IMG/VR virus record: IMGVR_UViG_3300037838_000203
Location: 1-43,083 of that record
Source: a virus
Strand: one strand, 5' to 3'
Length of the DNA: 43,083 nucleotides
Positions 8,884 through 35,516 of the stretch are shown here, piece by piece (the stretch's first letter is position 1; each line of letters starts with the position of its first letter). A program made the translations under genes and the position numbers. Under the pieces are notes generated by a model that saw only the letters and a list, made by a program, of their open reading frames with translations, searched no databases and had not been told where the DNA came from.

Positions 8884-8891
8884 TATTTATT
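8884..8891 (-). promoter_or_regulatory. Late-type promoter before the Ig-like virion gene
   Basis: The minus strand reads AATAAATA, one base from TATAAATA, 20 nt before the ATG at 8863 and upstream of an AAGGAG ribosome binding site. Confidence 0.65.
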
Positions 8892-8896
8892 GGCGA

Positions 8897-9055: not shown

Positions 9056-9089
9056 GTTTGCCTTGTTTAAGGACTATGTGTTTGTATTA

Positions 9090-10619: not shown

Positions 10620-10643
10620 TTTTATAATTCCTTTTGTTACAGA

Positions 10644-10651
10644 TATTTATT
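10644..10651 (-). promoter_or_regulatory. Late-type promoter before fibre gene A
   Basis: The minus strand reads AATAAATA, 24 nt before the ATG at 10619, with AAAGGA between. Confidence 0.65.
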
Positions 10652-10678
10652 GTAAATTTTATAAACCTAATGTAATTA

Positions 10679-12040
10679 TTATATGTCTATCGCTATACGC
10701 TGGAATTTGAACACTGTGCTATCGTCGGTTATGTTAGTGACCTTAACCTGCACATTATCACCACTAATTGCAACGGAATATGTTGCCAGGCCTGTCGCAT
10801 GATCGCTCACTGATCCAAATGTTGATATGTACGCTGTAGTTCCGTCATGTATCACGTTGGCTTCCACTAATTCAAATCTGCTGTTTGTGGCGTCTGTGGC
10901 AGATATAAAGTATTTTGCACTTCTGTACACTGTTTTATCAAACGTGTTGAGAACACTAGTTGTTGAGCTGGCCACTGTTGTTGTGGCATCTGCTATGTCT
11001 GAGTGATTCAATGTTGCACCCGCGGTGGCGAATGAAAGTGTTCCTGCCCCGTCTGTGCTTATAAATTGTCCACTCGAGCCATCTGTGGTCGGGAAGGTAA
11101 ATCCACTTACTCTTACACCCCCTGAACCATTACCTGTCAGTTCTAGATTGGCGTTCGATGCATTTGTTGATACAGTGTTGTCTGCTATTGTTATACCATC
11201 GATTGTCAAAGATGCTGTAGTATTCAATGATGTGAACGAACCCGCCAAAGGTGTTGCACCACCTATGACTGTGTTATCAATAGCACCGCCATTGATATCT
11301 GCTTTAGCGATTACAACTTGTCCTGTTCCAGCAGGTGCAATAACAAGATCCGAGTTGGACTGTGTGGTTGTGATCTCGTTATCTGTAATATTGATATTAG
11401 AGTCAACAGTTAAATTTGCTACCACTACAGAACCAGTACCACCCGGTGTAAGGTTGATATCTGCGTTTGAACTTGATCCTATGGTGTTATCATTGAATGT
11501 TAGATTGTCTATTGTTGTTGTGCCAGCAAGACTTGTTGTACTTGTAACTGTGAGTGTTGACAACGTTGTTAGGCCAGATGGAACAGCAAGAGTAGAACTC
11601 ATGGTTGTTGCACCCGTAAGTGTTGATATACCAGATACATTTAAAGTGCCGTCCACAATCAAATTCTCATTGATGTTTATTGCTGACGAATCATCTGAAC
11701 TGAATGAGGTACCATTGATTTTTATAGCACCAAACACAACCGAACCAGTACCGTTTGGTATCAAATTTATGTTATCATTAGTCCTAGTGCCTTCTATATT
11801 GTTGTCATTGATACGTATTGCTGGAAAAGACACAGAACCTGTTCCGGCAGGAACAAAAACTATATCGTCGTTTGTTCTTGTGGCACTTATCTCGTTGCCA
11901 GTAAAGGAAAGATTTCCTGAGAATAAAGGTGAAGCATACAGTTCAGTGAAATTGTCATTGACCTTGGTCATTGCTGAACGTAAATTATCACCTGTTCCGT
12001 CGTTAGCGTTTGATCCTATGTTAAGTGTTTGTTGTGCCAT
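10679..12040 (-). CDS. Repetitive tail-fibre-type structural protein B
   Basis: A 453-residue paralogue of the neighbouring fibre genes. The N-terminal module is 'QQTLNIGSNANDGTGDNLR...KVNDNFTELYA'. The middle repeats the phrases 'RTNDNINLIPNGTGSVVFG' and 'NITDNEITTTQSNSDLVIAP'. The C-terminal 110 residues (FDKTVYRSAKYFISATDATNSRFELVEANVIHDG onwards) form a distinct beta domain that recurs in several copies in the next gene, so it is a mobile fibre-end module. Only 2 nt separate it from the upstream gene's stop. Confidence 0.82.
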   Translation of the reverse strand: MAQQTLNIGSNANDGTGDNLRSAMTKVNDNFTELYASPLFSGNLSFTGNEISATRTNDDIVFVPAGTGSVSFPAIRINDNNIEGTRTNDNINLIPNGTGSVVFGAIKINGTSFSSDDSSAININENLIVDGTLNVSGISTLTGATTMSSTLAVPSGLTTLSTLTVTSTTSLAGTTTIDNLTFNDNTIGSSSNADINLTPGGTGSVVVANLTVDSNINITDNEITTTQSNSDLVIAPAGTGQVVIAKADINGGAIDNTVIGGATPLAGSFTSLNTTASLTIDGITIADNTVSTNASNANLELTGNGSGGVRVSGFTFPTTDGSSGQFISTDGAGTLSFATAGATLNHSDIADATTTVASSTTSVLNTFDKTVYRSAKYFISATDATNSRFELVEANVIHDGTTAYISTFGSVSDHATGLATYSVAISGDNVQVKVTNITDDSTVFKFQRIAIDI

Positions 12041-12042
12041 GT

Positions 12043-23237: not shown

Positions 23238-23504
23238 TTAGACGCTTGAATTGGAATGCTCAGGATGATCAAGACTCAACTGTGCCTTGCCACCGTTGTC
23301 TATGTAAGCCTTGTATTCTGCGTAGTCTTTCTCATCTAGGCAGTGGATCTCACCTGCTGATGTGGTATATACATCTCTCATGTATCTGCTGACCGGGACA
23401 GCCTGTGCCATACACTCGTCGTAGGTGTTGAATTGTGCCGCATCAAACACTGCCTGGCAGGTGTCTTCGGTGAAACATATAATCATTACCATAAGGAATT
23501 TCAT
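23238..23504 (-). CDS. Small exported cysteine-containing protein
   Basis: An 88-residue protein with a short hydrophobic N-terminus (MKFLMVMIICF) that may be a signal peptide, then a region with cysteines at about positions 10, 16, 31 and 55, consistent with one or two disulfides in the periplasm. The middle (FDAAQFNTYDECMAQAVPVS) resembles small periplasmic phage proteins of unknown function. The late-type box TTTAAATA (23510-23517) ends 5 nt before its ATG, so it is probably late, like the secretion genes upstream. Confidence 0.65.
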   Translation of the reverse strand: MKFLMVMIICFTEDTCQAVFDAAQFNTYDECMAQAVPVSRYMRDVYTTSAGEIHCLDEKDYAEYKAYIDNGGKAQLSLDHPEHSNSSV

Positions 23505-23509
23505 ACAAA

Positions 23510-23517
23510 TATTTAAA
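23510..23517 (-). promoter_or_regulatory. Late-type promoter box
   Basis: The minus strand reads TTTAAATA, followed by TTTGT and the ATG at 23504. The TTTGT-ATG tail is identical to that at 33947 and 35516. Confidence 0.5.
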
Positions 23518-23543
23518 TCAACAATGAACGAAGTTATATTGTA

Positions 23544-23771
23544 CTACTTCTTCTTTTTCTGTAAAGTACGTATTTTAGTCTGTAGTCTGATCAGGTCGTT
23601 GTCAAGCAGTCTGACCCTGTCTATGAGTTTGATCAGTGTAGCCGATGTTGAAGACAGTTTGGGTGTGATTTCTGTCGTGATAAACTTCCAAAGGAAGTAG
23701 ATGAAGTATGCTAGGAAGAACACAGCCACAGTTGGGAAACCATAATCGTTTATGAGTGCAACTATGTCCAT
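23544..23771 (-). CDS. Small membrane/coiled-coil protein 2
   Basis: A 75-residue protein with a short N-terminal segment (MDIVALINDYGFPT), one membrane helix (VAVFFLAYFIYFLWKF) and a cytoplasmic-type heptad helix (LIKLIDRVRLLDNDLIRLQTKIRTL) ending in KKKK. The plan matches the neighbouring 93-residue protein (LGLP then membrane helix then coil), so they look like paralogues. A Shine-Dalgarno (AAGGAAGGAG) precedes the ATG. It lies at the 3' end of the secretion block and may form a membrane ring or scaffold, or be holin-like; undecided. Confidence 0.65.
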   Translation of the reverse strand: MDIVALINDYGFPTVAVFFLAYFIYFLWKFITTEITPKLSSTSATLIKLIDRVRLLDNDLIRLQTKIRTLQKKKK

Positions 23772-23815
23772 CTATACTCCTTCCTTTCTAGTATATTGGT
23801 AAACGTAATACATTC

Positions 23816-24097
23816 TCAATCCTTTCGGGCATCGGTCTTGCCGTCCGCTCTGGCCACCCTGTCAGTGTCTATTGGCAGTCCCAGTTGTTCGGAAACTTCC
23901 TGGTCAATTTTAAGTATGTCGTTGTTCATTGTCTTGACCCTGTTGTCCAATTGTGATATCACACTCTCGATGAACTTGATCGATGATACTATACCGTTCA
24001 GTATGTACCTGATTATGAACAGTATGAACACACCCATTCCCACAGTGGCGGCAATTGGTAATCCTAATTCTGCTACTAATTTAAAAAACTGTGTCAT
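23816..24097 (-). CDS. Small membrane/coiled-coil protein 1
   Basis: A 93-residue protein with MTQFFKLVAELGLP, one membrane helix (IAATVGMGVFILFIIRYIL) and a heptad helix (FIESVISQLDNRVKTMNNDILKIDQEV), then a charged tail ending DGKTDARKD. It is a paralogue of the 75-residue protein downstream. Its promoter region is identical over 20 bp to that of the ABC membrane gene at 27826, which ties it to the same late regulation. A holin-like role is possible from size, but the coil suggests oligomeric assembly. Confidence 0.68.
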   Translation of the reverse strand: MTQFFKLVAELGLPIAATVGMGVFILFIIRYILNGIVSSIKFIESVISQLDNRVKTMNNDILKIDQEVSEQLGLPIDTDRVARADGKTDARKD

Positions 24098-24105
24098 TAT
24101 ATGTG

Positions 24106-24113
24106 TATTTAAC
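24106..24113 (-). promoter_or_regulatory. Late-type promoter, duplicated module
   Basis: The minus strand reads GTTAAATA, then CACATATA, then ATG at 24097. The 20 bp 24093-24112 are identical to 27822-27841. The upstream half overlaps the last codons of the cyclase gene. Confidence 0.55.
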
Positions 24114-26034
24114 GCACCAAGGTGTACACATTCACAGGTTCGGTTTTGCCCTTGACTGTGATGCTGTCAACGAATTCAAAAGAGAATTTATCGTCTATAA
24201 CTTTCTTTGTTGCTTCTCCTACTATCAGTGTGTGTCCCAGCGTCTTACTTGCACTCTCCAAACGTGCCGCAAGGTTAACAGAGTCACCTATAACTGAGTA
24301 ATCAAATCTCTGGTCTGATCCCATGTTACCAACCAGTGCCTCGCCGGTGTTGATCCCTATTCCTATCTTGATGTTTGGTAAATTTTCTGCTGACAACTGT
24401 GTGTTCAGCATGGCCAATTCTGATTGCATCTGGGACGCTGTCAGCACCGCCAACATCTGGTGATCCTTTGTGTCCAATGGTGCGTTCCAGAACGCCATTA
24501 TGCAGTCACCCATGAACTTGTCCACTGTGCCACCATTGGCAATTATGACGTTGGTCATGCGTGTTAGGAATCTGTTGATCAGTTTCGTGAGTTCTGTTGG
24601 ATTGTCCTTGTACTGTTCTGATATGGGAGTGAATCCCCTAATGTCGCAGAACATGAAAGTCATGTATCTCGTTTCGCCACCCAGTTTCAATAGGCCGGGA
24701 TCTTTCTGTAACTTCTTGACCATCCGAGGATCAAGGTAGTGTTCGAACTGTTTCTTGATCTGTTGTTTCAATCTACTCTGTGTCGCGAAGTTGTTGTACA
24801 CAGAATGAGACCAAATCAGGAACACTGACAGGATTATCCAAGATGGGTCTACTAGGAATCCTTTGTTTGTATATGCCATGAATGCTCCGTAGGCAACACC
24901 TACTTCCACAAATAATAACAACGGTACAGCCAACAGCACACTGGTTCTCGGCAGTACAAGTATCAACAGCAATAATAAAAATGCCATGAACACTATCTCA
25001 TATGTGTCCGCCTGTGGTGTGCGTAATAGATATTTGCCTGTTAAAAATGTGTCTAGTGCTTGTGCAGATATGTTTTGATCTGTTGTCAGACCATGTGGTG
25101 TGTACTTCAACACACTTAATCCTGCGGCGTCTAGTCCCACAACAATTATTCTGCCTTTTATTTTTTCCTTGTCAAAGTTATCAGTCAGTATGTCTGTGGC
25201 TGATATATTCTCATACATCGACGGTTCGGCATAGTTGATGTACATCTCTGCATTATGGTTCACAGGTATACCTGCCTTCTTGCTCACAAGCACTTCGTCT
25301 ATGCCGTGTTGTTTTGCGATAACTTTGATTCTTTTTGATTTATTTAAAAGTCTAACATTCTCTAGTAGCATAGAGGGATATATCTTATCTCCCACACGTA
25401 TTAACACAGGCATCTTTCTCACGACAGCATCGGGTTCTGGTGAAGTAACATTCACACCCATGCCTGTTGCACCTGCACTGACTCTAGCAGTGGGTGATAC
25501 TATTCCTTCGAATTCATACAGCCAAGGTTGTACAACACCTTTTTCAATGATCTGTGTGGTGCTGGGTAATTCTGTGCCTGTCTCGTTTTTAACACTCATC
25601 ATTAAAATGGCTTTCTTGGATTCTTTAAGAACTATTGAGAACACCGCATCTGTGTCTAATAACACTTTGCCCAATTGCTCTCGCAGTTCGTTGTTCATAG
25701 GCATGGACTTTAAATATTCTGTGCCACTCATTCTGTCTGGTTCAGCAAACAGTATGTTGTAGTTCACCAGTATGGCTCCGTTGTCTACTAGTTTTGCGTG
25801 TAGCATGGCCATCACATGTCTGGGCCACGGCCATTGTCCATATCTTTTTAAATCTTCTTCTGTGACGTTGATCACAGTGACTGAGTCACTAACTTCCTGT
25901 CTCGGTTGTACATATTGGAAGTGATCCCACGTCTTGTATCTCAAGGTCTTCACTGTGTCGCTGTTGTCTATCCTGACCCCTGTCAGCACGACAGCAAATG
26001 CTATGACCATCCATATGCTTGTGAATATCTTCAT
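24109..26034 (-). CDS. CHASE2-domain class III adenylate cyclase
   Basis: A 641-residue membrane enzyme that should make cAMP. An N-terminal membrane helix (IFTSIWMVIAFAVVLTGV) is followed by a CHASE2 sensor domain outside the membrane (about 25-330), three membrane helices (about 335-420: FMAFLLLLLILVL and following) and a cytoplasmic cyclase domain (about 450-641). Catalytic residues are present: metal-binding Asp464 (FCDIRGF) and Asp510 (FMGD), adenine-selecting Lys506 and Asp578 (FDYSVIGD), Asn587 and Arg591 (NLAAR). The ATG at 26034 overlaps the upstream stop (TAATG). A complete cyclase in a phage-like genome is unusual. Confidence 0.93.
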   Translation of the reverse strand: MKIFTSIWMVIAFAVVLTGVRIDNSDTVKTLRYKTWDHFQYVQPRQEVSDSVTVINVTEEDLKRYGQWPWPRHVMAMLHAKLVDNGAILVNYNILFAEPDRMSGTEYLKSMPMNNELREQLGKVLLDTDAVFSIVLKESKKAILMMSVKNETGTELPSTTQIIEKGVVQPWLYEFEGIVSPTARVSAGATGMGVNVTSPEPDAVVRKMPVLIRVGDKIYPSMLLENVRLLNKSKRIKVIAKQHGIDEVLVSKKAGIPVNHNAEMYINYAEPSMYENISATDILTDNFDKEKIKGRIIVVGLDAAGLSVLKYTPHGLTTDQNISAQALDTFLTGKYLLRTPQADTYEIVFMAFLLLLLILVLPRTSVLLAVPLLLFVEVGVAYGAFMAYTNKGFLVDPSWIILSVFLIWSHSVYNNFATQSRLKQQIKKQFEHYLDPRMVKKLQKDPGLLKLGGETRYMTFMFCDIRGFTPISEQYKDNPTELTKLINRFLTRMTNVIIANGGTVDKFMGDCIMAFWNAPLDTKDHQMLAVLTASQMQSELAMLNTQLSAENLPNIKIGIGINTGEALVGNMGSDQRFDYSVIGDSVNLAARLESASKTLGHTLIVGEATKKVIDDKFSFEFVDSITVKGKTEPVNVYTLVR

Positions 26035-26393
26035 TACAGTCCTGCCCCTTGTCTAAATCCCACTATGACTGCTGTCAACATCCACAACGCAAAAACAATG
26101 ATTGGACTCAACAACCATAACCACCAGTAGTAGCGGAATATGCTCTGTCCTCGTTCTAGTCTGATCTTCCTGTTGTCCAAGAACCAATGCACTATCCTCT
26201 TGATAAAACTCTTTACGTGTTCGTTGACGAACTTGGCCAATATCCAACGCACCACCCTCATGACGATCAGTATGGGAGAGCTCAACACGTCGAACACAAT
26301 AAGGAAGATGTCAACACTGAGATCAACCATGTGGTCCGCAGTCATGGCCTTGCGCCATCTTTCCCTGATTGTCAGTTTCTTTTGTTCTTCCAT
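26034..26393 (-). CDS. Membrane protein of the secretion/cyclase operon
   Basis: A 119-residue protein with a cytoplasmic charged N-terminus (EEQKKLTIRERWRKAM), a first hydrophobic stretch (LSVDIFLIVFDVLSSPILIVM), a basic amphipathic loop (FIKRIVHWFLDNRKIRLERG) and a strong membrane helix near the C-terminus (WWLWLLSPIIVFALWMLTAVIVGF). It sits between the HlyD gene (1-nt gap, ribosome site CAGGAGAG) and the cyclase gene (TAATG overlap), so it is co-translated with both. No family recognised; it may link transporter and cyclase. Confidence 0.7.
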   Translation of the reverse strand: MEEQKKLTIRERWRKAMTADHMVDLSVDIFLIVFDVLSSPILIVMRVVRWILAKFVNEHVKSFIKRIVHWFLDNRKIRLERGQSIFRYYWWLWLLSPIIVFALWMLTAVIVGFRQGAGL

Positions 26394-26394
26394 G

Positions 26395-27120
26395 TTATCT
26401 CTCCTGTAGCGCCATGCCTATTCCGTTGTGGAAAGGTGTTGTCACGTAACTCAATATTGTACGTTCACCTGTGAGCACGAACACGTGTACCTGTATTCCT
26501 GGTACCAGTTGATACTGCATGTCTCCGTTGGCAAAAATTTGTGAATCTAATTCTAATTCTATCTCGTAGTAAGACATTGTCTTTCCTTGTACAGCATCCG
26601 GAGATATTCTGATTAGTTTTGCTTTGATAGGTAGATATGTGAATGCTTCACTGCTTGCCAGTTTAATTTTTGCAGATTGTCCCACTTCAACATAGCCTCT
26701 GTCCTTGACTTGCAGTTGTCCTTGCACTATTAATTTTTGATCCAGTGGTACTAGTATGGCTAATGCGTCTCCTTGTTTGACAACAGAGCCTGGATTTTTG
26801 TATGTGAGTTCTTGTATTCTGCCATCTATGTTTGCTTTGATATAGTAAGGCTCATATCCAACTCCTGGATTGATTGTAATTATGATATCACCTTTGTTCA
26901 CAACGGCTCCTTGCTTGTAATGAACTTTTACAATCTCCCCTGTCACCATCGTGCCTAATTTTGTGATGTTCTTCTCAGGTATGACCATACCATTGGCCAC
27001 TGTGGTAATATCAACCTTGGCTTGCCATGCCCACACAAACAGTGTAACAAATAGAATTGTCAACAAAACAAAGAACTTATTGTTTGATGAAACTGATGAT
27101 TTCTGCTGTTGCTCTATCAC
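26395..27120 (-). CDS. HlyD-type membrane fusion protein, short form
   Basis: A 241-residue periplasmic adaptor for type I secretion. It has one N-terminal membrane helix (FFVLLTILFVTLFVWAW), then ANGMVIPEKNITKLGTMVTGEIVKVHYKQGAVVNKGDIIITI, the lipoyl half-motif of HlyD, a second lipoyl half (IDGRIQELTYKNPGSVVKQGDALAILV) and a beta-barrel end. The usual long coiled-coil hairpin (about 150-200 residues) between the lipoyl halves is missing, hence the short length (HlyD is about 480). The start is a GTG at 27120, supported by a strong AAGGAGG site (27133-27139) inside the ABC gene, with a 44-bp overlap. Confidence 0.87.
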   Translation of the reverse strand: MIEQQQKSSVSSNNKFFVLLTILFVTLFVWAWQAKVDITTVANGMVIPEKNITKLGTMVTGEIVKVHYKQGAVVNKGDIIITINPGVGYEPYYIKANIDGRIQELTYKNPGSVVKQGDALAILVPLDQKLIVQGQLQVKDRGYVEVGQSAKIKLASSEAFTYLPIKAKLIRISPDAVQGKTMSYYEIELELDSQIFANGDMQYQLVPGIQVHVFVLTGERTILSYVTTPFHNGIGMALQER

Positions 27121-27826
27121 GTCTTGCTATTGCCTCCTTTGCTTTGGCATATTTGTTGGCACCTTGCAGTGCTCTTGCCGCCAATATGTTTGAACCTATC
27201 AGTAGTCCCACGTCCAGTGTGCCTGCGATTATCTGCATGGCACCCACTGACATGATTACCACTGTCATAAGTCCTGTTAAAAATATCTCCAAGTTCGCTG
27301 TGCTGTCACTCTGCAGGCTCAGGTTGATCCTCTGTGCGGTCAGCACCATCATGATGATCATGAATATGGCCGCGATCAGTGCCGCTGTCCAATTTATGTA
27401 AAGTAACACAACGAGGAATGCCAACACAAATGGCCAGTCTATGATCCAACCTGTGATGCTGGAACTGGTTGCACCTTTGATGGTTGCACCCGCAACTTCC
27501 AGTTTCTTGAACTGTTCTCCTGTGATCTGTGTGCCTTTGATCTTCTTTGCATACGCATTCAACAATGGAGTGAAGATCCTGATGTTCAACTGCTGTATCA
27601 TGCCTGCCCTGTTCTGCCTGAACCCAAATTCAAACGCCAGCAACAGAATGGCTCCCATGGCCAACGATATCAATGTTGACGTGACGCCTGATGCAAGGTA
27701 CTTGTTCAATACAATTATCACAAACAGTGCAGGAGCCAACGCACAGATGGCAATGATCAAACTGCTGATCAACAGCATTATGGCCGTGACTTTGTCACGG
27801 AATAGGTGTCGTAGGAAACTTGTCAT
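27077..27826 (-). CDS. Type I secretion ABC transporter membrane domain, no ATPase
   Basis: A 249-residue membrane protein matching the transmembrane half of HlyB/PrtD/LapB-type exporters: ALAPALFVIIVLNKYLASGV near the N-terminus, FEFGFRQNRAGM, the KIKGTQITGEQFKKLE loop, then paired helices (WPFVLAFLVVLLYINW, AALIAAIFMIIMMVLTA). It ends at KEAIARRDRATAEIISFIKQ. The nucleotide-binding domain that normally follows (Walker A, signature LSGGQ, Walker B) is absent, and no separate ATPase gene lies in the window. It is read from a late-type box at 27835-27842. Confidence 0.87.
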   Translation of the reverse strand: MTSFLRHLFRDKVTAIMLLISSLIIAICALAPALFVIIVLNKYLASGVTSTLISLAMGAILLLAFEFGFRQNRAGMIQQLNIRIFTPLLNAYAKKIKGTQITGEQFKKLEVAGATIKGATSSSITGWIIDWPFVLAFLVVLLYINWTAALIAAIFMIIMMVLTAQRINLSLQSDSTANLEIFLTGLMTVVIMSVGAMQIIAGTLDVGLLIGSNILAARALQGANKYAKAKEAIARRDRATAEIISFIKQ

Positions 27827-27834
27827 TATATGTG

Positions 27835-27842
27835 TATTTAAT
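27835..27842 (-). promoter_or_regulatory. Late-type promoter of the ABC membrane gene
   Basis: The minus strand reads ATTAAATA, then CACATATA, then the ATG at 27826. The 20 bp 27822-27841 are identical to 24093-24112. Confidence 0.55.
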
Positions 27843-27853
27843 TGATTTGGTAA

Positions 27854-29650
27854 TTAAAGGATTGGATCCACTAGGCCAAGTACCTTGTGCAATTGATATC
27901 TTGCCATCTGCCAATCTATCTGTGCGTTTAGGTACGCAACCTCACTCATTAGATGTGCTGTTTTCATGCCGAACACCGCCATTATGGGTGAGTTACCTGC
28001 TTGGAAGTCTGCCAGTGTGAGTTTGTACATCTCATCATTGATCTCAACTGTACGTTTCAGTGTTTGTAAATTCTTCTCAACCAGCACGTAGTTGTTCCAT
28101 GCATTGTCAAACTGTTCCTGTGTGGTTCTCAAGATGTCTTGATGTCTAAACTGTGCCGCACTCAAACGAGAACGATCTGCATTGGTCATGTGTCTGTTCT
28201 TGAAATTGAATAACTTCCAAGTCATTGTGATGTCTGCTCTCCACTCTTCTTTTTGTGAATCATGTGTATCATAACCACCACCTAGTTCACCGTCCTTCTC
28301 TGTGTAAGACAGTTTGCCGTCTACTCTTGGTTTAAATTCTGCGTTGTCGAATGCCAGTTGTTCCTGTGCAATAGTGATGTCCATGCTGGCTATACGCAGT
28401 GACGTGTTGTTGTTGATGGGTGCACCTTGTACAGGAATTATACCAAGTACATCTGCCAAAGGTTTTGGCATCTCTGCGATGTTGTGTGGCTTCCATCTCC
28501 AGACATTCTGGAATCTCTGTATGGCACTGTCTAGCCCTAGCCTGCTGGTCATTGACAGTGTTTGGTATGTTCTGTACTGTTGTTCAATCTGTAATTGTTC
28601 CAGTTTAGATCCTTCACCTTTTTTGACTTTCTCAATCGTCATTGCCAATGTGATCTTTGCGTTAGATTCCACTTTCTTGTTTGCTTCGTGTGTGTTGTAT
28701 GCTTTCTGTAGATTCAGCCATGCGTTGATGGCCTCTATAACAACATCTTCTTTTGTAAGTTCCAGTCTGTAGTGTGCCTGTTGAGCAGTTGCTTTGGCTT
28801 TGTCTATCATGGCAGTGGTCCTGCCTGCGTCCCAGATCATCTGTGTGACTGTTATTGATTTTTGTATGCCCTGTTTAGAATCGTGTGTGATTGTGTTTGC
28901 AGGATGTGTACCTTTTGCAGGAGTTCTGTCATCTTCCCAGTTGTTGCCAATTGATACAGTTACCTGTGGATAGTATGCTGTGTACTCTGATTTCAATGCT
29001 TCAACGGCCGCTTCATAATCCAGTTCTGCCGCTTTGATCTTTTCATTTTCTACGATCAGTCTTGGTAGCAATTCATGAAACTGCATCCATGTAATTTTTT
29101 GTTCAGCATCTACATCTGCCCATTCTTTCTCTGTGGCTTCTTTGACCAGTTTCTCATCTGCTTTGGCGTCCACTTCTTTTTTAGCAATTTCTTTTTTGAC
29201 TTCTGGTTTCTCTATTTCTTTAACAGGTGTTTCTGCTAGTTTCTTCTCTTCAATTGCTTTCTCAACTTTTTCTTCTACTTTTTCAGCAACATCCTTCTCT
29301 TCTTTTAATTCTTTTACTTTCTTCTCCGTTACAATTACTTGTTGTTCTATCTTCTCAAGTTTTTCAACTTTAGCAGTGGCCTTGGGAGCCTCTTCGACCT
29401 TGTCCTTGAATTTCTTTATGGGATTCTCTTTCTTCTTCTCAGGTGCTTCAACGGTTATAATATTCAATCCTTCGGGTATTTTGGTTCTAATTCTTGTTTG
29501 TAAACTCTCACTGCCTACGCAATTTTCCATCACATACTTTTCAGTTTCTTCAGTAACTTCCCACTTGCAACCTCCACTGTCTTCCGCAAAGACGGCCATG
29601 TTCCAATTGAACATGATTGCTATTAGGATGTAGTGTACGAGTTTTTTCAT
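27854..29650 (-). CDS. TolC-family outer membrane efflux protein
   Basis: A 598-residue outer-membrane channel for type I secretion. It has a signal peptide (MKKLVHYILIAIMFNWNMAVFA), then a Lys/Glu-rich linker (about residues 65-175) unusual for TolC, then two outer-membrane-efflux repeats (about 180-385 and 405-598) with typical helices (IKAAELDYEAAVEALKSEYTAYYPQV, QFDNAWNNYVLVEKNLQTLK) and a C-terminal ...QMARYQLHKVLGLVDPIL. A late-type box (29661-29668) lies 10 nt before its ATG, overlapping the stop of the giant substrate gene. With the HlyD and ABC genes it completes an envelope-spanning export path except for the ATPase. Confidence 0.92.
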   Translation of the reverse strand: MKKLVHYILIAIMFNWNMAVFAEDSGGCKWEVTEETEKYVMENCVGSESLQTRIRTKIPEGLNIITVEAPEKKKENPIKKFKDKVEEAPKATAKVEKLEKIEQQVIVTEKKVKELKEEKDVAEKVEEKVEKAIEEKKLAETPVKEIEKPEVKKEIAKKEVDAKADEKLVKEATEKEWADVDAEQKITWMQFHELLPRLIVENEKIKAAELDYEAAVEALKSEYTAYYPQVTVSIGNNWEDDRTPAKGTHPANTITHDSKQGIQKSITVTQMIWDAGRTTAMIDKAKATAQQAHYRLELTKEDVVIEAINAWLNLQKAYNTHEANKKVESNAKITLAMTIEKVKKGEGSKLEQLQIEQQYRTYQTLSMTSRLGLDSAIQRFQNVWRWKPHNIAEMPKPLADVLGIIPVQGAPINNNTSLRIASMDITIAQEQLAFDNAEFKPRVDGKLSYTEKDGELGGGYDTHDSQKEEWRADITMTWKLFNFKNRHMTNADRSRLSAAQFRHQDILRTTQEQFDNAWNNYVLVEKNLQTLKRTVEINDEMYKLTLADFQAGNSPIMAVFGMKTAHLMSEVAYLNAQIDWQMARYQLHKVLGLVDPIL

Positions 29651-29660
29651 TATGTACCAA

Positions 29661-29668
29661 TATTTATG
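29661..29668 (-). promoter_or_regulatory. Late-type promoter of the TolC gene
   Basis: The minus strand reads CATAAATA, 10 nt before the ATG at 29650, and overlaps the stop codon of the 1209-residue gene. Confidence 0.55.
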
Positions 29669-32600
29669 TTACCACGGTGACCTGGTCTGCTGTGCCTGTG
29701 TAGTCGTCCAGATCCCATTGCATGTCGTATGTGCCATCGTTGTTGTAGTCTATCTTGAACAGTGTGTTGTTGGTCAGTGTTCTTGAGATACTGGCACCAT
29801 TCGTTATGGCACTGATGTCTATACTGTCACTGCCTATGGTGTAGTCCAGTATGACGTCATTGTCACCTGTTAGGTCCGATTGGTTCAGTGCTGTGTACTT
29901 GATCACGTCTGATCCGTTGCCCGTCCATATCTCGTCTGAGCCCGTGCCGGGTGTGAAAGTGTCACTGCCTGTGGTTCCATACATCACCTCCCCGGCTGTC
30001 GTTCCGTTCAGCACACTGTATCCGTCGAATATCAAACTGGTTGCGTAGTGCAGGCTGTTCAGTGCGTAGGCGTCCCAGGCATCGTTCTCTGCAAAACCGG
30101 TACCAATGTAGTGGTCGGCTGGTGTGGTTGAGTAGTACACCGCACCTGCGCCTGCTTCCCAGACTGCGTCCACGAAGTGTCCTGTGTTTGAAGTCGTGGC
30201 CAATCCCAACACGTCCGAGTCAAGGTTGGTCATGTATCCGTGGTTGGTTGCATTACCACCACCTATGTTGAACTCACCCAGATGGTTGTTGCCGGCGTGA
30301 TCGCCATCGGGATCAACGCCAAAATCAGATGTGTCGTCCACCATGATACCACCCGGTCCATACTTCAACAGGTTGCTGGCGTTCTCGTCCGCTATCTGGT
30401 ATGCCGCCGCTTCATTGCCACTAGCACTTCTCGTGGTGACCACGTTGCCATTGTGTCCGGGCAGGTGGGTGTCAAGTGCTGAGTCATTGACCCATCTGTC
30501 ATACATCACGAACACACCACCATCATCGACCCATGAGGTCAGTGCCGTGCTGAATGGACTGCTGTTGAAACTACTGTTGCTGGAGTTGTAGTATGCTATC
30601 ACGTCATAGGTGTCAAGGTTGTTGGCATTGTAGGCCTCCGCAGTGTGTCCAAGTTCTGTGATTATGCCAGCACCATCTCCCGTTCCTGCGTATGCAATCT
30701 TCTGTTTGTAGGCACCCGCTGATCCATCCCCTGATGTTAACCACCCTGCTGGATCGTTGGCACTCTCTGCCACGTCTGTGACATTAACTACTTGGTTGGC
30801 AGTTGTTGTGTTGCCGTTGCTGTCAGTGGCCGTTATCGTCAATGTGTGTGACGTCGCAGTTTCATAATCTAGTGCCGCCGCTGTTGTGATGGCACCTGTT
30901 GAAGAATTGATTGTGAATAGATTTGATCCATTGCCCGCCGTTATTGAATATGTAACTGTTTCGCTCTCTGCGTCCGAGGCCGATATCGTTGACACCGCTG
31001 TGCCTGTGCTGACATCCTCTGCCAGTGACACAGCACTGGTGTTGGATATCTCAGGTGAGTGATTGTTCTCCACAGTGATCTGCCATGAGTCTATGTCCGA
31101 CGCACCATATGGATCCTGCACCTTCAACAGTATCGTGTAGGTCGTGTCCTCAGTGACTGAGAAAGCGGAGTTCAAATAAATTCTGTTGCCTGATATTTTC
31201 AACTTGCCAGTGGGATCATCAAATATCGAAAACGTCAGTTGGTCGTTGTTTGCATCTGATCCATACACGTAACCCAGGGTATCATCCACTGCCAGGTTTT
31301 CATTGACTGTGACTGCGTTGGGCATGTCCAACCATGGGGCCACGTTGACGTCCTGTTCCTCCGCCATGTCCCATATGAACTGATCCATGATGGCATCTGC
31401 CTCTAAGGAATCGTAGTAGGCGTCCTCGTTGTTGTCTATGACGTCCCAATAACTGTCATCCTCTAGGGCATAAAAATCATCAGCATTGTTGACGCCTGCG
31501 CCGGCGCCGTCGAAATACTCATCTATGTATTGAGCTTGGACCACCACCATGTCCTGAACCTGCTGGTCTATGACTTCATTGTCGGGATCCACCTCTTGAA
31601 AGAAGTCGTCCATCTCCTGTGCTATGGGCTCCTCCATCAGTGCTTTTTCTTTTTCTTCCTGTATGAGTTGTTCCACTGCTTGGTCATCGACTTGGTTCTC
31701 TTCATCGACGTTGAACACATCATTGTCCTCATTGAAACCTGGACCGTCTTCTGGATTAACTATTTCTCCATTATCCAAATTAATCATCATGTTGTCTTCT
31801 TCAATCATTTCTTCTAACTCTTGGAATTCTTCGTTGTTTTCCAACTCCTGCATCTGCTCTTCCACGTTCTCCTCAGCGAAGATGTCCTTGGGTTCTTCTT
31901 CGACGATGTCCTGTTGTGCTTCGTTCACTTCATTGAATTCTTCCATGACGTTCTCTTGTACGTCAAGCATCATGTCCTGTGGTGATTCATCTATGAACTG
32001 TTGCAGTTCGTCTGCTGGTATGAAGTTTTCGAACTCTTGCACAAACTGTTCTTGGAATTTTTCAAAGTTTTGTACAATGGCTTCAAATCTCTGCTCGACT
32101 GCTAGAACTTTTTGTTCAACAATTAATTCTTTTTCAATGACCTGGAGAACTTCTTTCTCCACAAACTCCACCTTGGCTTCTATCTCCGCGAAGTCCTCTT
32201 GCACTTCGGCAAATTCTTTCTCTATGTCTTGAACTTTCTGTTCCACGACCGCTTTCTCCTGGGCGACCACTTCGATCTCTTGTTCGATCTGTTGTACCTC
32301 TTCCTCGATCTCTTGAAATTCTTCTTCCAACTGTTGTAGTTCCTGTTCAATTTTTTCTCTTTCTTCAACAGGTGCGTCATCCAATTGTTCTTCTAGTTCC
32401 TCGATTTCTTCTGCAACTTCTTCTTTCTTTTCTTCGGCTTGTTCCTTTTCTTCTAAAACTTGCTCTTCCGCTTCTTCTAACTCTTCGGCTTCCTCTTCAA
32501 GTTCCTCAGCCTCCTCTTCCAGTTCTTCGGATTTCTCTTCAAGTTCTTCTGCCTCTTCTTCTAGTTGTTCTTTTTCTTCCTCAAGTTCCTCTTTTTCTTC

Positions 32601-33293
32601 TTCCAGTTCTTCTGCCTCTGCTTCTGCTTCTGCTTTTTCTTTGGCGGCTTCTTCTGTTTCTCTTTCAACTTCTGCCTTTGCTTCTGTTTTTTTAGTTGTT
32701 GCGATTGTTTTCGCAAACTTTTTAAGCACTACGTCTTTTGACAATATCACTGGAACTGTTGGTACAGTGTATGGATCAGTGATAATGGTTGCTTGGTATG
32801 CCTCTGTCAACAACACCTCACCGGAATCGTTTTTAATCATCACTTGTCCAACTGAACCATCTTCATTCGGTAACAATACTATTTCATTTTCTTCACCGTC
32901 TGTGTTGGCTTTACCCGCTACCTGTGTACCTCTTACGCCAATTGTTAATACAGGTGTGGTCACCTTCATTGCGTCAGCGCCTGTTTTAGCAATCTGTCCT
33001 GAGACGAATGAGAAGTTACCTTCTAGTACATTGGCATTCATAGATCCCACCGTTGGATCCTCGGGATCGTACACGAAATCATCTATGACCATTGTGCTGT
33101 TCGGGTCAACGGACATTGTGGTCTCATCTGCGAAAGCGATACCCACAGCGGTTCCGCCAGCACTGATAACATCATCCAAGTAGATGAAATCACCTTCGCT
33201 GAGTTCTATCGTCTGATCTCCACGCTGTATCTTGAACGCCTGTTCAGCCGTGGTGACTTTTCCGATTGCTAATGGGTCGCTGAAAACTGCCAT
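29664..33293 (-). CDS. Giant FecR-coiled-coil-cadherin-RTX protein, predicted type I secretion substrate
   Basis: A 1209-residue acidic protein. Residues 1-195 are a FecR-type beta domain (VYDPEDPTVGSMNANVLEG, VLTIGVRGTQVAG). Residues 200-600 are a very long Glu-rich coiled coil with heptads such as EELEEEKEELEEEKEQLEEE, then Gln/Asp/Asn-rich spacers. Residues 650-840 are two cadherin-like repeats. About 840-1085 is a ThuA/glutamine-amidotransferase-like domain (DVIAYYNSSNSSF, WVDDGGVFVMYDRW). About 1095-1209 is the secretion end, with glycine-aspartate nonapeptides (GSDTFTPGTGSDEIWTGNGSD) and DYTIGSDSIDIS. There is no N-terminal signal peptide, as expected for a type I substrate. Probably a secreted or surface-anchored adhesin. 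Confidence 0.88.
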   Translation of the reverse strand: MAVFSDPLAIGKVTTAEQAFKIQRGDQTIELSEGDFIYLDDVISAGGTAVGIAFADETTMSVDPNSTMVIDDFVYDPEDPTVGSMNANVLEGNFSFVSGQIAKTGADAMKVTTPVLTIGVRGTQVAGKANTDGEENEIVLLPNEDGSVGQVMIKNDSGEVLLTEAYQATIITDPYTVPTVPVILSKDVVLKKFAKTIATTKKTEAKAEVERETEEAAKEKAEAEAEAEELEEEKEELEEEKEQLEEEAEELEEKSEELEEEAEELEEEAEELEEAEEQVLEEKEQAEEKKEEVAEEIEELEEQLDDAPVEEREKIEQELQQLEEEFQEIEEEVQQIEQEIEVVAQEKAVVEQKVQDIEKEFAEVQEDFAEIEAKVEFVEKEVLQVIEKELIVEQKVLAVEQRFEAIVQNFEKFQEQFVQEFENFIPADELQQFIDESPQDMMLDVQENVMEEFNEVNEAQQDIVEEEPKDIFAEENVEEQMQELENNEEFQELEEMIEEDNMMINLDNGEIVNPEDGPGFNEDNDVFNVDEENQVDDQAVEQLIQEEKEKALMEEPIAQEMDDFFQEVDPDNEVIDQQVQDMVVVQAQYIDEYFDGAGAGVNNADDFYALEDDSYWDVIDNNEDAYYDSLEADAIMDQFIWDMAEEQDVNVAPWLDMPNAVTVNENLAVDDTLGYVYGSDANNDQLTFSIFDDPTGKLKISGNRIYLNSAFSVTEDTTYTILLKVQDPYGASDIDSWQITVENNHSPEISNTSAVSLAEDVSTGTAVSTISASDAESETVTYSITAGNGSNLFTINSSTGAITTAAALDYETATSHTLTITATDSNGNTTTANQVVNVTDVAESANDPAGWLTSGDGSAGAYKQKIAYAGTGDGAGIITELGHTAEAYNANNLDTYDVIAYYNSSNSSFNSSPFSTALTSWVDDGGVFVMYDRWVNDSALDTHLPGHNGNVVTTRSASGNEAAAYQIADENASNLLKYGPGGIMVDDTSDFGVDPDGDHAGNNHLGEFNIGGGNATNHGYMTNLDSDVLGLATTSNTGHFVDAVWEAGAGAVYYSTTPADHYIGTGFAENDAWDAYALNSLHYATSLIFDGYSVLNGTTAGEVMYGTTGSDTFTPGTGSDEIWTGNGSDVIKYTALNQSDLTGDNDVILDYTIGSDSIDISAITNGASISRTLTNNTLFKIDYNNDGTYDMQWDLDDYTGTADQVTVVT

Positions 33294-33311
33294 CTAGTAC
33301 GTATCCTCACT

Positions 33312-33333
33312 GCGTATATTTAATAATATACGC
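33312..33333. promoter_or_regulatory. Perfect palindrome over a late-type promoter
   Basis: GCGTATATT and AATATACGC form a perfect 9-bp inverted repeat around TAAT. The minus-strand box ATTAAATA (33317-33324) for the giant secreted-protein gene lies inside it, 23 nt before the ATG at 33293, with a GAGGA site between. It could be an operator for a dimeric regulator, a hairpin, or chance. Confidence 0.5.
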
Positions 33334-33359
33334 TGTTATAAAAACCACGTACTTTTATG

Positions 33360-33947
33360 CTAGTCTTTGAATAGTTTTGAGGTGATCTCTGCTGTCTTAC
33401 TGCGTATTGCCCTGCTGACACACTCCTCCCAGATGTCGTCGGATTTGGTGTCTGCCAACTGTCCGAACACCAGTTTCTCATCGTAGTCCAACACCAACCA
33501 ACTCATGGCAGGCGTGTGTGGGTGTTCTATCTCCTCTTCCAACTGTGAACTGTTCCAACTGGCCATGCCCAGCATGATCATCCTGTTCAGTGGTCCACCA
33601 CCTCGGGCCACGTCTTCCAGTATCTTGCTGTCCAGTGTGAATCCCACAGTGCCTTCAATGAGCGTGTTGGTGCTGGCCAGCCTGTATTCGGTGCTGTGTA
33701 GCACTCCCACCACGTTGTTTAAAACTGGTCCACCGTAGTAGACGGGTGGATTGACTCCGGGTTTCAGTTTTATGTTGCCCTCCTGGCACACGTGTTGGAA
33801 AGTGGGCCTCTGGCACCGCTTGTTGATCATCACACCTGACGCTCCGGAAACGTCGTGCTTCCATATGAACACCACCGTCTTGGCGAATCTGGGATCAGGC
33901 ATGCCAGGTGGTGCCACTAGTAATTTGCCCTGTGCATCAATGATCAT
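33360..33947 (-). CDS. YqgE/AlgH family protein (UPF0301), complete
   Basis: A 195-residue protein starting at the ATG at 33947 (an upstream in-frame extension would run through the divergent promoter and into the radical SAM gene). It has the family hallmarks: GKLLVAPPGMPDPRFAKTVVFIWKHD near the N-terminus, GASGVMINKRC, VYYGGPVLNNVVGVLHST, TVGFTLDSKILEDVARG and MLGMASWNSSQLEEEI. The length is close to E. coli YqgE (about 187). The function of the family is poorly known. A variant late box (AATAAGTA) lies 5 nt before the start. Confidence 0.88.
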   Translation of the reverse strand: MIIDAQGKLLVAPPGMPDPRFAKTVVFIWKHDVSGASGVMINKRCQRPTFQHVCQEGNIKLKPGVNPPVYYGGPVLNNVVGVLHSTEYRLASTNTLIEGTVGFTLDSKILEDVARGGGPLNRMIMLGMASWNSSQLEEEIEHPHTPAMSWLVLDYDEKLVFGQLADTKSDDIWEECVSRAIRSKTAEITSKLFKD

Positions 33948-33952
33948 ACAAA

Positions 33953-33989
33953 TACTTATTTCCTGCACATATATAGGGACCAATAAGTA
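33953..33989. promoter_or_regulatory. Divergent variant late promoters between yqgE-like and radical SAM genes
   Basis: The 49-bp gap 33948-33996 carries two boxes pointing outwards. On the minus strand AATAAGTA (33953-33960) then TTTGT leads to the ATG at 33947. On the plus strand AATAAGTA (33982-33989) leads to the ATG at 33997. The arms form an imperfect inverted repeat. Confidence 0.5.
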
Positions 33990-33996
33990 ATTGTGA

Positions 33997-35280
33997 ATGT
34001 TTGAAAAAGAAAAAAAATATTTTCCAAAAATCACAGATCCACAGTGCCAGTTGAAATGGAATTGGTCAACTTTATGGCTCAACGATGGGACTACCAATTC
34101 TTGTCACCGTTGTTTGAAAGTGCCGTTGGATCCGGATAATTTTGACAATTTCCATAATCTACCTTTCAAAATCAAAGAAAGAGAAATAATGTTGTCTGGT
34201 AAATGGCCCACTGTGGAAAACGGTGGTAGTGGTCATTGTAACCACTGTAAGAGGGTAGAAGATTTTGGCGGAACCAGTGACAGGTTGAACATGCTCAAGA
34301 TGCCGAACCAAACGCCCCCTGAACTCTACAAAGATCCAAAGTCCACTTTTGTGACGCCGAGGATCCTTGAACTATTCATGAACGATACCTGTAACCTGAA
34401 GTGTACATATTGTGGACCAAGGGATAGTAGCCAGTGGAAAAGTGAGCTCAAGAAGTACGGAGCACTCACAGACCCCGATGGCAATCCTTCAACAACACAC
34501 GCACCAACATCAAGGGGCATGTTCAAGAGCAAAGATCAGAGAGCGTTAATGGACAAGACCAAGGACTGGCTGTTACGTAACGCCTACAAATTATCAAGAT
34601 TGCACTTGCTGGGTGGAGAAACCTTCTATCAATCTGAACTGGATGAGATACTAGACACTTTGGAGAACGTAAAAGCCAGGGATCTCGAACTGAACATAGT
34701 TTCCAATCTAATGGTCAAGGAAGAACGTTTTAAATCAGTCATCGAACGTATAAAGAGACTGGTGAAAGATCGAAGGATCGGGAGATTTGATCTCTCCTCC
34801 AGCATAGACGGATGGGGGCCGGAAGCGGAATATGCCAGGACTGGACTGAAATGTGATCATTTCGAAAAACTGTTTTCGTACGCTGTTGATCAAAAATGGA
34901 TGCGTCTACACGTCAACATGACCACCACATCAATGATTGTGAAGTCCGTGCCATTGTTAATAGGGAAAATTATGGATTACAGGAAACACAATCCAAAAAT
35001 TACTTTGCGAGCGAACTTCCTGACAGGAACTCCGATACTACATCCATCTACCTTTGGAAGGAAAATGTGGACCAACGATCTAGAAAAAATATTGTCTGTG
35101 TGGCCGAATGAAACCCAGCAAGACAGAAATGCGATGCAGGAGTTCAAGGGTATTTTTGACTCAATACCAACAGAAATGCCTGATGAGAAGATGTTGAGAT
35201 ATTTTAAACACTTCCTAGATCAATTAGATAAGCGTAGAAACACCGACTGGCGGAAAGTTCTACCTCATTTAGATATCTGA
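33997..35280 (+). CDS. Twitch-domain radical SAM protein
   Basis: A 427-residue plus-strand enzyme. The radical SAM cluster motif is CNLKCTYC (Cys132, 136, 139). Two further Cys pairs, CHRC (Cys36, Cys39) and CNHC (Cys81, Cys84), may hold an auxiliary cluster or zinc. LLGGETF and the later [13 protein letters not shown] strand complete the SAM barrel. Such twitch radical SAM proteins recur in marine T4-like phages with unknown substrate. It lies between the full yqgE-like gene (divergent) and the YqgE-chimera gene (convergent, 16-bp overlap). The Fe-S genes elsewhere in the window could serve its clusters. Confidence 0.87.
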
Positions 35281-35516
35281 TCAAACTTCTTTAATTTTAT
35301 TAGCAAACTTTCTAAATCGTACAGGTGTAGGTTGTTTGGACCGTCCGATGCCGCATTGTCGGGATCATCATGCACTTCCATGAACACACCCGCAACACCC
35401 ACGGCCACGGCCGCACCCGACACATCGTGTCTCCATATGTACACGACCGTCTTGCGGAATCTGGGATCCGGCATGTTTGGTGGTGATATGAGCAACTTGC
35501 CCTGTGTGTCGATCAT
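35265..35516 (-). CDS. Chimeric short protein with YqgE N-terminus
   Basis: An 83-residue protein. Residues 1-33 copy the YqgE start closely ([33 protein letters not shown]). Residues 34-83 are unrelated to YqgE ([33 protein letters not shown]). Even the promoter (AATAAGTA then TTTGT, 35522-35529) duplicates that at 33947. It may be a partial duplication fused to another sequence that gained its own use. The C-terminal [14 protein letters not shown] helix may be a binding motif. Confidence 0.6.

Follow-up and report, generated by a model that had tools for sequence, protein, structure and literature searches.

Why would a virus carry genes resembling a bacterial protein secretion system next to a cyclic-nucleotide cyclase? 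The question is raised by eight ORFs at 23544-33293 of the viral record IMGVR_UViG_3300037838_000203, of which positions 1 to 43,083 were analysed (termed the window). All eight lie on the minus strand, and their place and order are those that an earlier sequence-only reading had given: a large substrate, a TolC-family channel, an ABC exporter membrane domain, a HlyD-type adaptor, a membrane protein (MEM119), a CHASE2 cyclase and two small proteins (sORF93 and sORF75). The overlaps it had listed were each recovered, namely TAATG at 26034, 44 bp at 27077-27120 and 1 nt at the junction of the HlyD and membrane protein genes. Moreover, the four module genes before which it had seen late-type boxes are the same four of eight that have NTAAATA within 45 nt upstream. 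These boxes, all on the minus strand, are TTAAATA at 33317..33323 before the substrate, ATAAATA at 29661..29667 before TolC, TTAAATA at 27835..27841 before ABC-HlyD-MEM119-cyclase and TTAAATA at 24106..24112, overlapping the cyclase stop codon, before sORF93-sORF75. Among 56 minus-strand genes, a list that we chose from the ORFs of the window, 14 have the box within 45 nt upstream, compared to 1.9% of positions taken at random (P 2e-12 in a binomial test). In relatives, counted in loci that were picked for complete starts and not dereplicated, the box is found before the substrate (7/7), TolC (8/8), ABC (17/17) and sORF93 (11/12) and is absent before HlyD (0/15) and the cyclase (0/10). The boxes are presumably late promoters.

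The module and its flanks recur in many viral contigs from different samples, with an ABC identity to the window of 47-97%. Wherever a locus extends at least 1.5 kb upstream of the cyclase, both ABC and HlyD are there (21/21), and a related 172-kb contig that has the module also has phage-type replication and nucleotide genes. The gene order, which the earlier reading had suggested looking for in related marine phage contigs, is found in many uncultured ones, and this recurrence together with the late-type boxes bears out its view that the block is phage-borne. The ABC, HlyD, TolC and cyclase genes have a low dN/dS of about 0.03-0.15 among the window pairs listed. A local rise in GC to 0.52 is seen at 30-31 kb. 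This rise and the bacterial origin of the gene families could point to an assembly chimera or to bacterial DNA in a viral bin. However, recurrence across so many viral contigs contradicts a chimera; phage-type boxes precede the units and the short ABC form described below is absent among the 30 bacterial ABCs counted, and we give this explanation next to no credence. The description of the genome as T4-like is borne out only in part: there are a gp44-type clamp loader and proteins of the baseplate/fibre type, but gp44 finds its best matches, at 54%, in Pseudomonas phages of about 285 kb. Queries with the terminase and capsid of HTVC008M, used as markers of the pelagimyophage lineage (Kyanoviridae), matched none of 7 and 10 related records, respectively, and no positive control matched either.

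The ABC protein (27077..27826, minus strand, 249 aa), read earlier as an ABC membrane domain, is a six-helix exporter membrane domain. Its AF2 model (pLDDT 83) matches HlyB residues 140-450 with a VIA Z of 19.0, the PDB profile match alone being weak (E 0.6). Its match to TIGR03375 (8.7e-16, 57.3 bits) lies below the cut-off of 693; this family being tied to LapB, we take the protein to be of the LssB/LapB class. What had not been noted is that the ATPase domain is absent. An alignment of 17 phage copies, with the deletions mapped on 12, shows that both coupling loop 2 and the ATPase domain have been deleted, and the complete ABC ORFs from phages, 21 in number, all measure 247-251 aa, whereas the 30 bacterial ones counted all have 528 aa or more. 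An ATPase-domain profile built from 31 bacterial ABCs matches no ORF in the 72 phage loci, which are fragmentary records, and matches all 32 bacterial copies scanned, 31 of which had served to build it. PF00005 was above its cut-off in only one of 13 records, in a single stand-alone protein that we read as SufC-like. The adaptor (26395..27120, minus strand, 241 aa, GTG start) exceeds the Pfam cut-off for HlyD (6e-17) and has the lipoyl halves and the beta-barrel without the alpha-hairpin, aligning to 8dck_C 64-128 and 329-478. It matches TIGR01843 in two stretches (1.7e-45; 155.8 bits, below the cut-off of 208.65). About 184 hairpin columns are deleted in 12 phage copies when compared to 14 bacterial ones, the latter chosen at 400-460 aa; in known systems the hairpin is the part that meets TolC. 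The TolC-family outer-membrane channel (27854..29650, minus strand; Pfam OEP 2.4e-49) has a Lys/Glu-rich N-terminal extension at about residues 61-193 and matches TIGR01844 at 1.4e-29 (103.4 bits, below the cut-off of 225.15). For TolC, HlyD and the ABC domain alike, the best NCBIfam matches are type I families, all under their cut-offs. The block had been called a type I secretion block. This name is not supported as it stands, since ATPase domain and adaptor hairpin are missing in the 17 aligned phage copies of each protein. Thus, although of type I origin, the block falls short of a complete type I system.

That the block has a substrate of its own is supported. The large substrate gene (29664..33293, minus strand), with a stop codon immediately 5' of its ATG, encodes a FecR domain (residues about 8-190), an acidic coiled-coil-like stretch (about 200-430), a cadherin repeat (755-838) and a weak RTX C-terminus; across loci the type I substrates have 1005-1696 residues. 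The label RTX-type fits only in part: in the window the RTX match reaches 18.1 bits against a Pfam cut-off of 23, whereas the substrates of loci L046 and L092 are above it. A repeat pattern of our own design was not found in four of eight substrates, and the type I signal in those four is therefore only putative. The FecR domain (residues 1-200; 32694..33293, minus strand) is over the Pfam cut-off (3e-7) and matches the cell-surface anchoring domain 5ix9 by profile (E 7.4e-8, query 8-80). Its model, which has a mean pLDDT of 73 with weak stretches, resembles 5ix9 in Foldseek (E 0.02, prob 1.00, rmsd 1.3 over 61 columns) with a modest VIA Z of 6.1. Anti-sigma/PupR signalling domains give better fold matches than the anchoring domain (Foldseek E 2-4e-4, VIA Z about 15); hence the domain may serve signalling alone. 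Judged by profile and predicted model, the FecR domain is homologous to the N-terminal anchoring domain of RTX adhesins, with a putative role in retention. The cited passages of two papers describe an N-terminal retention domain that anchors RTX adhesins (PMC12077191, PMC6890996).

The cyclase gene (24109..26034, minus strand) encodes a CHASE2 sensor and a class III nucleotide cyclase, both above the Pfam cut-offs (CHASE2 2.1e-39; Guanylate_cyc 8.9e-22). Asp464, Lys506, Asp510 and Arg591 are invariant in 10 phage cyclases and were also aligned to solved cyclases; we take the four to be the catalytic residues, with Lys506 presumably pointing to adenine. The CHASE2 cyclase of the earlier reading is supported, cAMP being the putative product. 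The cyclase domain is also matched (2.7e-30 at best) by models of PycC, the cyclase of Pycsar (cyclic pyrimidine defence); as to a linked effector, the other six proteins scanned gave no PADLOC match. In a tree made with a quick method and set against 78 bacterial cyclases, 13 type I cyclases and 26 curli-linked ones fall, together with one Caulobacteraceae sequence, on one side of a branch with a support of 100. S. meliloti CyaD1 produces cAMP constitutively when CHASE2 is removed, as stated in the cited part of PMC5498481, which favours the display and sensing reading given below. MEM119 (26034..26393, minus strand), with two predicted helices, is optional and was not found beside the cyclases of some relatives. 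The small membrane protein sORF93 (23816..24097, minus strand) and its paralogue sORF75 (23544..23771, minus strand) both belong to phrog_18771. The pair lies within about 3.5 kb downstream of the cyclase in 60 of 71 loci and was not found in the other 11. sORF75 also matches a holin PHROG weakly (E 0.0023), much less well than it does phrog_18771, which is unannotated.

In HTVC008M and Melnitz, CsgF is directly preceded by homologues of sORF93 and sORF75, and a curli (type VIII) version of the module occurs in cultured SAR11 and OM43 phages. That version, with FecR and adenylate cyclase, is already published, and the cited passages add that the two are not always present (PMC9599517). In our scan for FecR, the cyclase was present within the examined stretch in all five type I loci and in 44 of the 67 curli ones, as well as in HTVC008M and Melnitz; in the remaining 23 curli loci it was not seen within that stretch. 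Of the 10 proteins at 23238-34097 of the window, none matched a Csg family of Pfam at E 0.1 or better, and no annotated phage record, those of HTVC008M, Melnitz and the HTVC023P type included, had a TolC or ABC match. Using the same settings and hydropathy alone, all 66 curli-linked FecR ORFs but none of the eight type I substrates were seen to have a hydrophobic signal-peptide-like start. Since the same FecR-CHASE2 pair is combined with a curli pore in related phages, the export machine appears to be exchangeable. The earlier statement that such a module is not well described fits the type I variant, of which no report was met in the open-access papers searched, but not the curli variant.

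The anatomy of the module, that is its genes, their order, boxes, deletions and homologies, together with the difference in N termini and the shared cyclase branch, is firm. As to function, we tentatively suggest, at chances just short of even, that the phage has adapted a LapA-type adhesin secretion system into a module for surface display and sensing. Four transcription units, expressed late in infection, would yield the substrate, TolC, a membrane complex of ABC membrane domain, short HlyD and CHASE2 cyclase, and the two small membrane proteins. The substrate would enter the export route C terminus first, while its FecR domain would stay periplasmic and keep the remaining protein spanning TolC and exposed on the cell surface. 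From its place in the periplasm, the CHASE2 domain may then sense the FecR domain and switch cyclic-nucleotide synthesis, by which the infected cell would learn that display is done. Energy for the export that we infer could come from a host type I ATPase subunit acting in trans, or from the proton gradient and folding outside. The most likely benefit would be an infected-cell surface that is altered or aggregated against competing phages. A more radical reading, which we consider doubtful, is an ATPase-free trans-envelope display machine. Here membrane domain and short adaptor would form a port that is passive or driven by protons, while TolC with its extension would bridge in the adaptor's stead. 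The retained FecR domain would serve as anchor and as reporter at once, and completed display would be signalled by the CHASE2 cyclase. Phages would have swapped the export part, type VIII or type I, and kept this reader.

The same deletions could also mean that these proteins do not export the phage substrate. The ATPase-less ABC and hairpin-less HlyD might be dead subunits that stop a host type I adhesin exporter, with the result that the surface of the host is altered or adhesin-dependent superinfection prevented. Motor, coupling loop and TolC-contacting hairpin are gone while membrane and ring parts are kept at low dN/dS, and full type I systems are frequent in bacteria with CHASE2 cyclases, all of which would suit such a poison. 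However, it would need neither a TolC nor a large substrate of its own, each with a late-type box, and the curli version pairs FecR and cyclase with pore and fibre genes in phages of SAR11 and OM43 hosts, which lack a curli system according to the cited passages of PMC7029224 and PMC9004378. We regard it as unlikely. Quite unlikely, too, is canonical secretion with host assistance, in which a host ABC subunit supplies the ATPase, the substrate is released normally and the cyclase is an unrelated regulator. The type I families as best, if sub-threshold, NCBIfam matches and the retained six-helix fold are in its favour, but with coupling loop 2 deleted motion could come only via the partner subunit, and the company of FecR and CHASE2 cyclase with two export routes argues against an unrelated cyclase. 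Finally, the TolC or CsgG hole in the outer membrane and a holin-like sORF pair could form a gate for lysis timing that the cyclase signal opens. A lysis role was suggested for the Melnitz curli pore in the cited part of PMC9004378, and the holin match of sORF75 and the late-type boxes are in line with it. This gate is nevertheless very unlikely, as that match is marginal and the large substrate, HlyD, the ABC domain and an N-terminal FecR domain on a substrate lacking a signal-peptide-like start would be left unexplained.

These findings suggest that the curli genes of ocean phages, puzzling in themselves, represent one form of a wider plan consisting of FecR, CHASE2 cyclase and an exchangeable export route. 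The type I variant offers a second, independent system in which to ask what the curli genes do, and its consistently motor-less parts raise the question of how, or whether, such a system moves protein. Moreover, the homology of FecR to an anchoring domain suggests, in a form that can be tested, what CHASE2 sensors may respond to; the cited part of a 2016 paper called the factors recognised by CHASE2 domains unknown (PMC5192318).

Several known systems resemble the module in part. Among 80 bacterial CHASE2-cyclase loci, in many of which the contig ends early, 28 have an ABC, 27 HlyD, 25 both and 28 FecR, in accord with the earlier statement that FecR proteins occur beside CHASE2 cyclases in bacteria. 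In alphaproteobacterial loci with full type I systems, such as L123, L133, L160 and L168, the cyclase has ABC, HlyD and a large FecR protein in its vicinity, as in the phages. However, bacterial HlyD has 414 aa or more in 30 of 31 cases, the exception being L143 with 248 aa, and the bacterial cyclases and FecR domains fall outside the phage clades. In the Burkholderia operon of a FecR-LysM protein and a CHASE2 histidine kinase, FecR is likewise predicted to lie outside the cytoplasm beside a CHASE2 sensor, but the output is a kinase and there is no secretion system among the four genes described in the cited part of that work (PMC5192318). The pelagiphage curli module (HTVC008M, Melnitz and HTVC023P-type), as presented in the cited parts of PMC9599517, PMC7029224 and PMC9004378, shares FecR, the CHASE2 cyclase, the sORF93/sORF75 homologues and the cyclase branch. 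It differs in its CsgG/CsgF export parts and in its FecR protein, which is small and begins with a signal-peptide-like stretch. LapA/MpIBP-type RTX adhesin secretion, finally, shares the ABC class, TolC, HlyD, an N-terminal 5ix9-like domain and the lack of a signal-peptide-like start. The phage set, in contrast, is without ATPase, coupling loop 2 and adaptor hairpin, and has a CHASE2 cyclase nearby where the adhesin systems use the c-di-GMP LapD/LapG switch, as described in the cited passages of PMC6890996.

The window is a single uncultured virus record, 43,083 bases long. All eight genes that the sequence-only reading had placed at 23544-33293 were recovered there on the minus strand, and their succession is as it had stated: the block runs from the substrate through TolC, the ABC membrane domain, HlyD, a membrane protein and the CHASE2 cyclase to two small ORFs, here named sORF93 and sORF75. 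The family names are borne out by Pfam matches above cut-off for CHASE2, cyclase, OEP, HlyD and FecR. The substrate, a 1209-residue protein, had been called RTX-type; a Pfam RTX match exists but lies under the cut-off. The module as observed stands, while its interpretation as a type I secretion block is recast here as a motor-less, type I-derived and FecR-bearing module. Its flanks encode a gp44-type clamp loader and baseplate/fibre-type proteins, together with thymidylate synthase and exonuclease. An AlgH-like gene (PF02622) is found at 33360-34097 (minus strand) and a second, short AlgH-like fragment, judged by eye, at 35265-35516 (minus strand). Between the two, on the opposite strand, lies a radical-SAM-like gene (33997-35280, plus strand), as if its insertion had been accompanied by a duplication. 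Moreover, AlgH-like ORFs of 26-56% identity are located upstream of the module in the viral loci L058, L082, L084, L088, L089 and L092. A tRNA scan and Rfam scans gave no matches, nor did the exact pattern TATAAATA-N6-ATG.

The same gene block, which the sequence-only reading had suggested seeking in related phage contigs, proved to be a conserved phage module. The cyclase query retrieved 69 loci among viral contigs and the ABC query 26, three of them new, resulting in 72 loci in all, with near-identical contigs counted separately. Of the loci whose sequence continues for 1.5 kb or more on the upstream side of the cyclase, 21 of 21 carry both ABC and HlyD. Both small ORFs lie downstream in 60 of the 71 loci where the cyclase was found, and a sORF93 match is on the opposite strand in 15 loci. 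Searches of 50,697 annotated phage records found nine with the cyclase, six with the substrate (through its FecR part only) and nine with HlyD, where matches of E 0.01 or better were counted and three come from Salmonella enterica assemblies; TolC and ABC matched none. For a 172 kb phage record (G008), 33 selected ORFs were scanned, and the best 25 of 47 families are mostly replication and nucleotide genes. The same record contains ORF pairs that by eye resemble TctA/TctC-type transporter parts (L267, 4593-7068; L268, 10798-12981). The Terminase_6N profile found no match in seven records, with its positive control matched. The Gp23 and Portal_T4 profiles (seven records each) and the HTVC008M terminase and capsid queries were likewise empty, but carry little weight, since no control matched in these searches.

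The phage type I parts are consistently truncated. All 21 complete copies of the phage ABC are 247-251 residues long. Compared to 14 bacterial neighbours, 56 columns are missing after residue 162, at the position of coupling loop 2, and 237 columns, which correspond to the ATPase domain, after residue 249. An AF2 model of the ABC (pLDDT 83, built from 17 sequences) covers HlyB 140-450, with 249 aligned residues and a Z of 19.0. By itself, the ABC profile finds weak sequence matches in PDB (best E 0.6), and the best NCBIfam match of the protein, TIGR03375 (8.7e-16), falls far under cut-off, as expected for a truncated protein. HlyD aligns with 8dck_C 64-128 and 329-478; the intervening hairpin is therefore gone, a deletion of about 184 columns. 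Complete phage HlyD ORFs comprise 232-323 residues, the longest being that of viral locus L031, whose start lies inside ABC. The dN/dS values in the window pairs listed are 0.04-0.15 for ABC and 0.03-0.15 for HlyD, and thus neither has the look of a decaying remnant. TolC, finally, carries a Lys/Glu-rich N-terminal extension of 63-148 residues in ten copies measured, which was not seen by eye in the readable bacterial N termini (12 examined, L123 partial, L136 unreadable). Electrostatic pairing of this extension with an acidic stretch of the substrate was considered and dropped, because the extension is near neutral (net charge -11 to +9 in ten of 11 measured).

A motor profile built from 31 bacterial ABCs found no match among the ORFs of the 72 phage loci; it recognised 32 of 32 bacterial copies, 31 of which had served to train it, as well as a stand-alone ATPase at L072. 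We adopted this profile in place of a Walker A plus signature pattern, which was absent from the phage ORFs, because the pattern detected just 13 of the 32 bacterial copies. PF00005 gave a single match above cut-off across 13 records, to a stand-alone protein, plus sub-threshold matches. This protein was rejected as the type I motor and, judging its neighbours by eye, taken as SufC. At L072 1450-3462 (phage record G002), a stand-alone ABC ATPase taken as SufC is followed by a TonB-dependent receptor-like protein, again by eye.

Type I ABCs are present in 28 of the best 80 bacterial CHASE2-cyclase loci, HlyD in 27, both in 25 and FecR proteins in 28; ABC, HlyD and FecR occur together in seven, and at least one of ABC, HlyD, FecR or TolC in 52. 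Bacterial ABCs away from contig ends have 528-1305 residues (30 ORFs), and bacterial HlyD ORFs 414-885 in 30 of 31, the exception being L143 with 248. Since these ORFs are far longer, the phage ABC and HlyD look like reduced derivatives of bacterial CHASE2-linked type I systems. Across the bacterial loci (L105-L184, mostly alphaproteobacteria), a complete type I system is often found next to the CHASE2 cyclase, in some cases together with a large FecR protein; among the titles and abstract openings listed, we found no description of this arrangement.

The late-type boxes of the window are not due to chance: of 56 minus-strand genes (a selected list), 14 have NTAAATA no more than 45 nt upstream, as against 1.9% of random positions, and four of the 14 belong to the module. 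Among relatives it precedes the substrate in 7/7, TolC in 8/8, ABC in 17/17 and sORF93 in 11/12 cases, but HlyD in 0/15 and the cyclase in 0/10. From this placement we read the module as four transcription units. The model for the box is the T4 late promoter, and by this analogy we infer that it acts as a late promoter.

The FecR domain at the N terminus of the substrate is proposed to be the key to the mechanism. The only solved chain that its profile finds under 0.001 is 5ix9 (E 7.4e-8), deposited as antifreeze protein / cell surface anchoring domain, which we take to be part of the Marinomonas ice adhesin. Its AF2 model (pLDDT 73, 15 sequences) comes closest to the signalling domains of anti-sigma FecR and PupR (E 2-4e-4 in Foldseek, Z about 15), with 5ix9 next (Foldseek E 0.02, probability 1.00, rmsd 1.3 over 61 columns; in VIA, Z 6.1, rmsd 2.9, 73 aligned). 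A retention fold is common to the Marinomonas ice adhesin, LapA and FrhA (PMC12077191), and such adhesins remain anchored in a TolC-like channel (PMC6890996). In a hydropathy test, a hydrophobic, signal-peptide-like start was seen in 66/66 curli-linked FecR ORFs but in 0/8 type I substrates; in the window, the substrate ATG is immediately preceded by a stop codon. Taken together, the likeness to 5ix9, the retention literature and the N-terminal starts suggest that the FecR domain could sit in the periplasm in both versions, brought there by a signal peptide (curli) or by retention (type I). The CHASE2 domain would be in the periplasm with it. CHASE2 probably restrains the cyclase, because Sinorhizobium meliloti CyaD1 without CHASE2 makes cAMP constitutively (PMC5498481). 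Downstream of a common FecR-coil N-terminal half, the substrates have two unrelated-looking C-terminal endings, one in the window, L007, L046 and L092, the other in L013, L040, L050 and L058, as if the exposed end were swapped between phages.

Our best explanation is a motor-less, type I-derived, FecR-bearing module that would serve surface display and sensing. We give it close to an even chance, having slightly lowered our confidence because the best fold matches of the FecR model are signalling domains. The ATPase-less ABC and hairpin-less HlyD could instead be dead subunits that poison a type I exporter of the host, a decoy that we consider improbable, though marginally less so than at first. 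The phage records analysed are fragments, and display and sensing are predicted from their genes.

Phage curli modules help to explain the anatomy of the window's module. HTVC008M (SAR11) and Melnitz (OM43) each have one cluster with sORF93 and sORF75 homologues, CsgF, CsgG and a curlin-repeat protein. A FecR protein comes next, and between it and the CHASE2 cyclase lies one more protein, which has curlin repeats in Melnitz and is annotated as hypothetical in HTVC008M. Curli genes are found in 67 of the best 80 viral FecR loci, 44 of them with a cyclase in the stretch examined; five have the type I set and a cyclase, and eight neither curli nor type I genes. The viral loci L192 (9914-12748) and L193 (9758-12532) encode FecR proteins of 944 and 924 residues, with no curli or type I matches in the stretch examined; their FecR domains group with large bacterial ones. 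L032, L052 and L060 combine curli genes with a module-type cyclase, and L032 has TolC, ABC and HlyD upstream as well. In L032 (1926-10536), L060 (3-7842) and L052, the type I-side cyclase lies near the curli genes, and there is a second CHASE2-type cyclase. In a cyclase tree (quick method, midpoint root), the 13 type I phage cyclases form one clade (99), whose neighbours are the curli-side cyclases from L032 and L060. With a support of 100, all 39 phage cyclases, joined by the one from Caulobacteraceae L128, stand apart from the 78 remaining bacterial ones. In L128, FecR and the cyclase have CsgF and CsgG close by; this stretch (5992-12049 of a MAG) is the equivalent, in a bacterium, of the phage curli module. 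In the FecR tree, type I and curli domains are separate clades; because deep branching is weak and long branches come together, we name no ancestral version. The simplest history is that phages retained the cyclase lineage and swapped the export part, with no direction implied.

Pelagiphage curli with FecR and adenylate cyclase, neither always present, have been described, with superinfection defence, sibling capture and import as suggested roles (PMC9599517), and so has a phage curli pore (PMC7029224, PMC9004378). The text of PMC9599517 has no whole-word occurrence of TolC, HlyD or 'type I', and among the matches listed, by titles and abstract openings, we found no open-access report of the phage type I version. 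What is new is this variant itself and what it implies for the published curli version. The modules of HTVC008M and Melnitz share FecR, CHASE2 cyclase and sORF93/sORF75 homologues with the window, but have CsgF and CsgG where the window has TolC, ABC and HlyD.
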